Below, piece by piece: positions 26,216 through 28,083 of a DNA stretch of 64,000 nt (its first letter is position 1; every line of letters begins with the position of its first letter). The notes under the pieces were generated by a model. It ran no database searches and had not been told where the DNA came from. It worked only from the letters and a program-made list of their open reading frames with translations. This stretch comes from Mugil cephalus (taxonomy: Eukaryota > Chordata > Actinopteri > Mugiliformes > Mugilidae). A program made the translations under genes and the position numbers. The stretch covers positions 24,911,001 through 24,975,000 of the forward strand of contig NC_061781.1 in the NCBI RefSeq assembly GCF_022458985.1, written 5' to 3'.

Positions 26216-26230
26216 TCTCCTGGTGAAGTC

Positions 26231-28083
26231 TCACATGTCCTGCAGTTCCTTTTTCATATTATCCAGCTCCTCTGCAGACACAACGTTTCTTGTTATCAGA
26301 TTTATTTTTTTTTTTTTTTTTAAATACAGTGTTGTTATTAACTAATGAGGCAGAAAACAGTTCTCAACTTACTTTTGCTTGAGCTTAGTGTCTGACTTCT
26401 GTCTGCTAGAAAGAAGATGTTACTGTTTCTCTGCTGGATGTAAACTTTCTGAAGAAACAAACGACTAAATTAGCATAAATGCAGGTAACATATGTGGACA
26501 TACGATGAAATACGTAAAACAGCCAAATAAATATGTGCAGCTTCCAGGTTCGACTGTTTCGCCTGCAACTCGTCCTCACCCTGTTTTTCTTCAGATTACA
26601 GAGCTCGTCCACAACAACCTTCTGCTCCTTAATCTGGAAATAAACCAGGAGAAATAAAGAATTAAATGAAAACCTTCCTATTATCTTTGGGGTTTAACAT
26701 TTGTAAATATATTATTTTTTTGCTTCATATTTTATGATTTGTTTTCTATGTCCTGTATCATGATGTGTACATTCTCGTTCTTTGGGGTCATTTTAACCTG
26801 ATGCTCTTTTAGCCGTATAAAGACATATCAACCTTTAGTTTTATTAAAAACAAAACAAAAAAAAATCTTTGGGGCACAGGTGTCAAACATGCAGCATGGC
26901 AGGATGAATTTGCACAGTACAAAAGTGACAATGAAGACATTAATTACAATTTGTCCTATAAAATTAGCAGCTATCCTGAGGTTTCACACAGCTTTAGTAG
27001 AAGTTGTGCATATGGCACAACACTGAGCCCTCGAACTAAACGGAAATAACATTTCCTTTTCTTAAGAAACGTCCAGCTGTTACATAATAGTACATCATGA
27101 ATGTGTCGGAGACAGAGGACGTTGTTGAGGAAGACACTGACAATGAGACATCCTCCTCTGATGAGAATGACAACCTCAGTGTCTCTCAACCACCAAAATC
27201 TACGTACTTGAAAATTAGTTGGTGGAAGTAAAAAATAAAATAAAAATCCCACCATCTCCCATACATCATTAATTAATAATAATTATAATTTGCTTCCTGT
27301 CGTCTCTATGTAAATATATAAATGCAGTGTATGCACAATGTGTGGGGTGGGGTTTGTTTTATTCAAGGAGCTATTGAGGTTGTCGACAAACAGGAAGCAT
27401 GTGACGCTCAAACTTAGGGAACTATTTTAATTCTAATAATTTTCCGGTGGTTTAAATTTCTGCGGTCAAATTGAAAAGGTGTTAGTGAATTTAAAGGTAA
27501 CAGGAGGGTTAAAATAGCTGCACATAAGAAACAGATTTACCATCATCATTATTATTATTATTATTAGTAGTAGTAGTAGTAGTAGAAGTAGTAGTAGTAG
27601 TAGTAGTAGTATTAATCTTGGTACATTGCAAACTTGGTAATTTCACATTCAATGTGTTAACGTGGCAAACATTTAAATGCACAGAAATATATTCAATTAA
27701 AACACAAAACATAAAGGAAACCTAAAGTCTTGGAAATAAATAATAATAATAATACTCATATTTAAAATAAAATAAAGTGTAAACATTGCACAAGCAAATT
27801 TATGGGAAATTTGTTGAACATTTCGTATAATTCTGGGGATTTGTGGTATTTAATTAATTTCAGAGACTTTGAATTCGTTCCGAAAAATAATAAACTTGAG
27901 GGAAGACTTCATAACTCTATTTTTTGTGAATAACATATTTGGTAAGACCTAAAATAACATCGCAGCAGAACTGTTTGTTTGTACCAGGTTTGTGTTGTCA
28001 GCCTACAGAGAGCTAGCTCGGCTAACGGCTAACGTTACCTTCTTGTTCAGCTCCTCCTCGTTGTCGCGGCTTTTCGAAGACAT
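26231..28083 (-). CDS. asdurf: ASNSD1 upstream open reading frame protein (prefoldin-like microprotein)
   Basis: Four exons, 28083-28039, 26633-26580, 26448-26373, 26271-26231, join in frame to 71 residues. It starts [15 protein letters not shown], continues [18 protein letters not shown] and [18 protein letters not shown], and ends [13 protein letters not shown]. The middle matches human ASDURF (96 residues), reported as a subunit of the prefoldin-like module of the PAQosome chaperone. It is charged and predicted to be a helical coiled coil. This version is about 25 residues shorter, missing mainly the N-terminal extension and last residues. The stop is 15 nt upstream of the asnsd1 ATG in the last exon's continuous sequence, so one mRNA can encode both proteins. 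The ATG has G at -3. Confidence 0.9.
27542..27613. repeat. Compound (ATT)n(AGT)n microsatellite in the asdurf first intron
   Basis: A short run of ATT is followed by about fifteen AGT/GTA triplets with one AGA interruption. Confidence 0.9.

Follow-up and report, generated by a model that had tools for sequence, protein, structure and literature searches.

A four-exon ASDURF frame ending 15 nt before asnsd1 in Mugil cephalus, a probable fish counterpart of the human two-protein gene

Introduction

Human ASDURF is a protein of 96 amino acids. As in the fish locus described here, it belongs to the family PF21975 and its frame lies upstream of the asparagine synthetase domain gene ASNSD1 (PMC13303939, PMC9776223), although one source tabulates the human upstream peptide at 40 amino acids (PMC9776223), which conflicts with the length above and with the 96-position Pfam model of the family. 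The product of the human upstream frame was first detected by mass spectrometry (PMC10506109), and ASDURF-ASNSD1 is reported among 14 bicistronic transcripts that pass footprint filters and selection filters across 100 vertebrates (PMC13303939). STREMI-SLC35A4, MIURF-MIEF1 and PYURF-PIGY are described as likewise carrying a small upstream and a main downstream protein on one mRNA, and retroposition has been proposed for SLC35A4, with 50% of the downstream frames in the bicistronic set being intronless (PMC13303939). The ASDURF protein is described as part of PFDL/PAQosome (PMC9406135, PMC11009110); the human protein co-elutes with PFDL and the PAQosome, and compared with beta subunits it reaches a TM score of 0.563 on average (PMC11009110). 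A plant ortholog named as ASDURF, AT1G49245, is placed in the plant prefoldin-like complex (PMC10893143), and the fact that it has a gene identifier of its own suggests that the gene stands alone and that the protein predates the pairing.

Here we describe the corresponding locus of Mugil cephalus in a stretch of 64,000 nt (GCF_022458985.1, NC_061781.1, 24,911,001-24,975,000, forward strand; hereafter the window), in which the ASDURF and asnsd1 frames both lie on the minus strand and asnsd1 is preceded by ASDURF. Taken as a whole, the locus is with good probability best explained as the fish ortholog of the bicistronic ASDURF-asnsd1 gene of vertebrates. As ASDURF-ASNSD1 is a published human pair and ASDURF a PAQosome subunit, the fish locus would be a member of a known system, and the finding is a real, mostly expected fish copy of the human arrangement of two proteins on one mRNA. 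Added here is that both frames share one phase, that the upstream frame ends in AUG-UGA, that it contains two internal in-phase AUGs and that it shows no significant AUG depletion. In a literature search on asnsd1 no title found names fish ASDURF, which we do not take to mean that it is unpublished. With its exact coordinates the locus is a compact example, in a fish, of a conserved gene for two proteins, and the access of ribosomes to the second frame is testable in zebrafish or fish cells; a gene model that allows one CDS per transcript would call the conserved four-exon frame 5′ UTR.

Results and Discussion

Exon structure of the two frames

Reading the splice sites of the window joins four exons in phase into a frame of 71 codons and a TGA (Table 1), which confirms the frame proposed in the original prediction, and the three introns of 1405, 131 and 101 nt are all GT-AG. 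The interval 26216-28083 singled out in that prediction runs from the base before the asnsd1 ATG to the ASDURF ATG. It was further claimed that the ASDURF stop and the asnsd1 ATG lie 15 nt apart in one exon, and this is what we find, with the TGA at 26233-26231 and the ATG at 26215-26213; exon 4 carries the last ASDURF codons followed by the first 463 codons of asnsd1, and the two ATGs stand in one phase, 231 nt apart. In the ASDURF phase the spacer between the frames translates as DFTRR. GC content is 0.64 at third codon positions vs 0.33 in the introns.

Table 1. Positions of the features discussed in the text, numbered along the window.
Feature	Position	Strand	Details
Symplekin exons	8677-9390, 17859-18203	+	PF11935 and PF12295
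Signal (AATAAA or ATTAAA)	starts at 23268		3′ side of asnsd1
asnsd1 exon 6	23404..23650	-	to stop codon
asnsd1 exon 5	24553..24734	-	donor GTACGT, phase 2
asnsd1 coding part of exon 4	24827..26215	-	463 codons, starts Met-Cys-Gly-Ile, donor GTGAAG, phase 0
Spacer	26216..26230	-	15 nt, GACTTCACCAGGAGA, stop-free in ASDURF phase
ASDURF part of exon 4	26231..26271	-	acceptor GTCTGCAG, ends ATG TGA (26236-26231)
ASDURF exon 3	26373..26448	-	acceptor TTCTTCAG, 25 residues and first base of next codon, donor GTAAGT
Intron 2	26449-26579	-	131 nt
ASDURF exon 2	26580..26633	-	acceptor TTTCCAG, codons 16-33, donor GTGAGG
44-residue frame in intron 1	about 27099-27232	+	rich in Asp, Glu and Ser, ends ISWWK
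Microsatellite in intron 1	27541-27615		ATT/AGT trinucleotide
ASDURF exon 1	28039..28083	-	ATG 28083-28081, codons 1-15, donor GTAACG
Possible short first uORF	28129..28158	-	ATG..TAA, 9 codons, MRLSLLRLV, ends 45 nt before ASDURF ATG
CCGGAAGTG	28180..28188	-	105 nt upstream of ASDURF ATG, in the direction of the gene
Ferroportin (slc40a1) exons	42647-43321, 43999-44388	+	
WDR75 exons	57118-57543, 60745-61164	-	

Of the ASDURF splices, the one into exon 4 is the least secure. Among the 8 AGs tested past the exon 3 donor, the one ending at 26272 is the only one that gives the conserved end, and it is preferred over an acceptor at 26289, which is the first AG met but shifts the frame. An exon 2 that begins with CAG was ruled out, as this CAG is the acceptor itself. 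One of the three phases of intron 2 is stop-free, so that a form retaining this intron might read on. Intron 1 holds a trinucleotide microsatellite and, on the opposite strand, a 44-residue frame that to us resembles the start of a piggyBac-like transposase, though a Pfam search at E up to 0.01 gave it no match.

The asnsd1 frame is complete, with 605 amino acids in three coding exons separated by two introns, so that the locus lacks the retroposition signature of an intronless downstream frame. Its protein matches Pfam Asn_synthase (PF00733) at E 5.9e-18, and a match to GATase_7 stays below threshold (21.8 bits vs 25). The start of the protein fits a class II amidotransferase, in which we presume Cys2 to be the expected N-terminal nucleophile. 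A genome-wide, intron-blind Asn_synthase search listed three matches, each of them on another contig, and did not pick up the unspliced asnsd1 exons.

Family assignment of the upstream frame

In Pfam the joined protein hits the ASNSD1 upstream open reading frame protein family (PF21975, ASNSD1-SEP) at E 3.3e-25 with 88.4 bits, against a curated cut-off of 27 bits. This bears out the identity that had been proposed, and judged by this match the upstream frame is almost certainly ASDURF. Residues 5-70 align to positions 20-85 of the 96 in the model, as expected from the earlier claim that both ends of the fish form are shorter (71 aa, against 96 aa in human). The core had also been described as close to that of human ASDURF; against a human ASDURF sequence taken as a yardstick, the core sequence is the same, 45 of the 70 positions in a gap-free alignment carry identical residues, and the alignment scores 227, where shuffling the fish protein 1000 times gives at most 69.

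As the exons were picked by eye, a family check on unspliced DNA matters. Searching the 635-Mb genome with PF21975 without splicing left three candidates scored, of which the best two are ASDURF exon 3 (32.1 bits, above the cut-off of 27) and exon 2 (26.2 bits, just below it), and the third, on another contig, falls below the cut-off with 18.7 bits and E 0.85. This search did not recover exons 1 and 4, and the candidates scored include no second ASDURF copy. Within the window, exon matches to the human ASDURF yardstick reach 42.0 and 36.6 bits, against 23.9 for the best of 50 block-shuffled windows, and the fish protein compared with its own genome gives three matches, all at the ASDURF locus (exons 3, 2 and 1). 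A scan of viral contigs for ASDURF relatives gave 29 pattern matches and 0 confirmed ones, as expected of that collection.

By homology, the 71-aa fish protein would serve in the PFDL/PAQosome chaperone as a prefoldin-like subunit of the beta type. Prefoldin families are absent from its Pfam matches at E up to 1, a range in which the HMMER filters drop most matches above 0.1; the other match in that range is a weak one to CAGE1 (E 0.2). A Protein Data Bank search returned two matches at E up to 10, the best at 0.17 and neither meaningful. The long-standing coupling of ASDURF and asnsd1 that had been put forward agrees with the published human pair (PMC13303939). The terminal AUG-UGA and the phase shared with asnsd1 are described here for the fish frame.

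A putative common promoter

Upstream of exon 1 lies CCGGAAGTG, which we take to be an ETS-type core-promoter motif. CCGGAAGT occurs a single time in the 64-kb window, both strands counted, and CpG o/e is 1.27 at 28000-28199, where the 95th percentile of the window is 1.14 and the 99th 1.46. The position of this sole CCGGAAGT, 105 nt before the ASDURF ATG, suggests one promoter, and the region around it just before exon 1 would be the candidate. The 9-codon uORF (Table 1) would possibly be part of the leader, and only if transcription starts upstream of 28158-28129. The human uORF studied as ASDURF carries the number AUG.3 (PMC8894207, PMC9776223).

A single mRNA bearing both the ASDURF and the asnsd1 frame is, as read from the DNA, very likely. 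That this mRNA would give two proteins in this fish is only indirectly supported, by the shared exon 4 and by the sole CCGGAAGT with raised CpG before exon 1. The interpretation offered in the original prediction is thus partly supported: the ASDURF identity and the place of the frame before a complete asnsd1 hold, whereas the shared mRNA and the translation of both frames are inferred.

Under the leading alternative, few or no transcripts would contain both frames, owing to a second promoter or to skipping of exons 1-3, and the gene would be bicistronic in name. The 1405-nt intron 1 could contain a second start, and CpG o/e reaches 0.79-0.82 at 26400-26699; however, CCGGAAGT is found nowhere else in the window and the two 200-base steps that span 26200-26499, before the asnsd1 start, have a CpG o/e of just 0.17 and 0.20, and we consider this alternative unlikely.

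How ribosomes may reach asnsd1

A promoter upstream of exon 1 would make an mRNA with ASDURF as its first main frame and asnsd1 as its second, and most ribosomes would translate ASDURF, the first in line. The 15-nt spacing would suggest reinitiation or leaky scanning, as originally proposed: a minority of ribosomes would, by leaky scanning, pass three in-phase AUGs and arrive at that of asnsd1, and some reinitiation would take place at asnsd1 after the terminal AUG-UGA. The main source of asnsd1 protein may well be leaky scanning; reinitiation is a tentative candidate for this role, and transcripts without ASDURF are a rather doubtful one.

The ASDURF AUG has a G at -3 and a U at +4, and the asnsd1 AUG an A at -3 and a U at +4. 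Two internal ASDURF AUGs, at codons 64 and 71, are both in phase, and all three in-phase AUGs have a purine at -3. Leaky scanning is hindered by such in-phase AUGs, and the two internal ones argue against leaky scanning alone. No out-of-phase AUG was found before the asnsd1 start, which is also the case in 36% of synonymous recodings and in 40% of permutations of the frame's own codons (5000 each), so that AUG depletion, not being significant, was dropped as an indication of leaky scanning. Such pairs are reported to be driven by leaky scanning in green algae, and restoring an internal AUG in the first frame lowers the output of the second (PMC11892635); a Drosophila paper, by its title in the reference list of the same article, ties translation of the second cistron to absent in-frame AUGs in the first frame.

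Classical reinitiation would face a long uORF, of 71 codons, and a short spacer, of 15 nt, and both the elongation time of the uORF and the intercistronic distance are described as being among the deciding factors (PMC5972666). With AUG as its penultimate codon and UGA as its last, the ASDURF frame closes in a nested start-stop element, and 15 nt separate it from the asnsd1 start. We consider it a long shot that this element could license reinitiation of the DENR-MCTS1 type without a long spacer, which would couple asnsd1 output to a chaperone subunit; a ribosome that finishes ASDURF or starts at its last AUG would then terminate with an AUG in the P site. In human cells DENR-MCT-1 is reported to act in reinitiation on minimal start-stop uORFs, for which the authors speculate that the need for distance may fall away, and the effect depends on a strong Kozak context and weakens as uORFs get longer (PMC5972666). 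It may for this reason not extend to ribosomes that have translated the whole 71-codon frame.

Removal of the human uORF start codon is reported to raise reporter output 2.27-fold (PMC8894207). A rise of only this size implies that the downstream start is still used and the human uORF often passed, by either route. The same rise would fit an upstream frame that is mainly a repressive uORF, lowering asnsd1 output with a peptide of little import, but in the fish frame the amino acids themselves are conserved (66 residues on 66 Pfam positions, 88.4 bits), which a repressor acting by length alone does not need. We regard repression as the main role as very improbable; the repressor and protein roles of the upstream frame can coexist. 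Readthrough of the ASDURF TGA into an ASDURF-ASNSD1 fusion, for which the in-phase ATGs and the stop-free DFTRR spacer would allow, is barely conceivable, as two frames share a phase by chance in one case out of three, TGA GAC is to our knowledge no readthrough motif, and the fusion would bury Cys2, the presumed nucleophile, inside the chain and should not supply an active glutaminase.

Gene neighbourhood

Exons of ferroportin (slc40a1) and of WDR75 lie near the ASDURF-asnsd1 locus (Table 1), which fits the neighbourhood of human ASNSD1. On the other side of asnsd1 the window contains symplekin exons; human SYMPK is on another chromosome, so that the symplekin side of the synteny differs from human.
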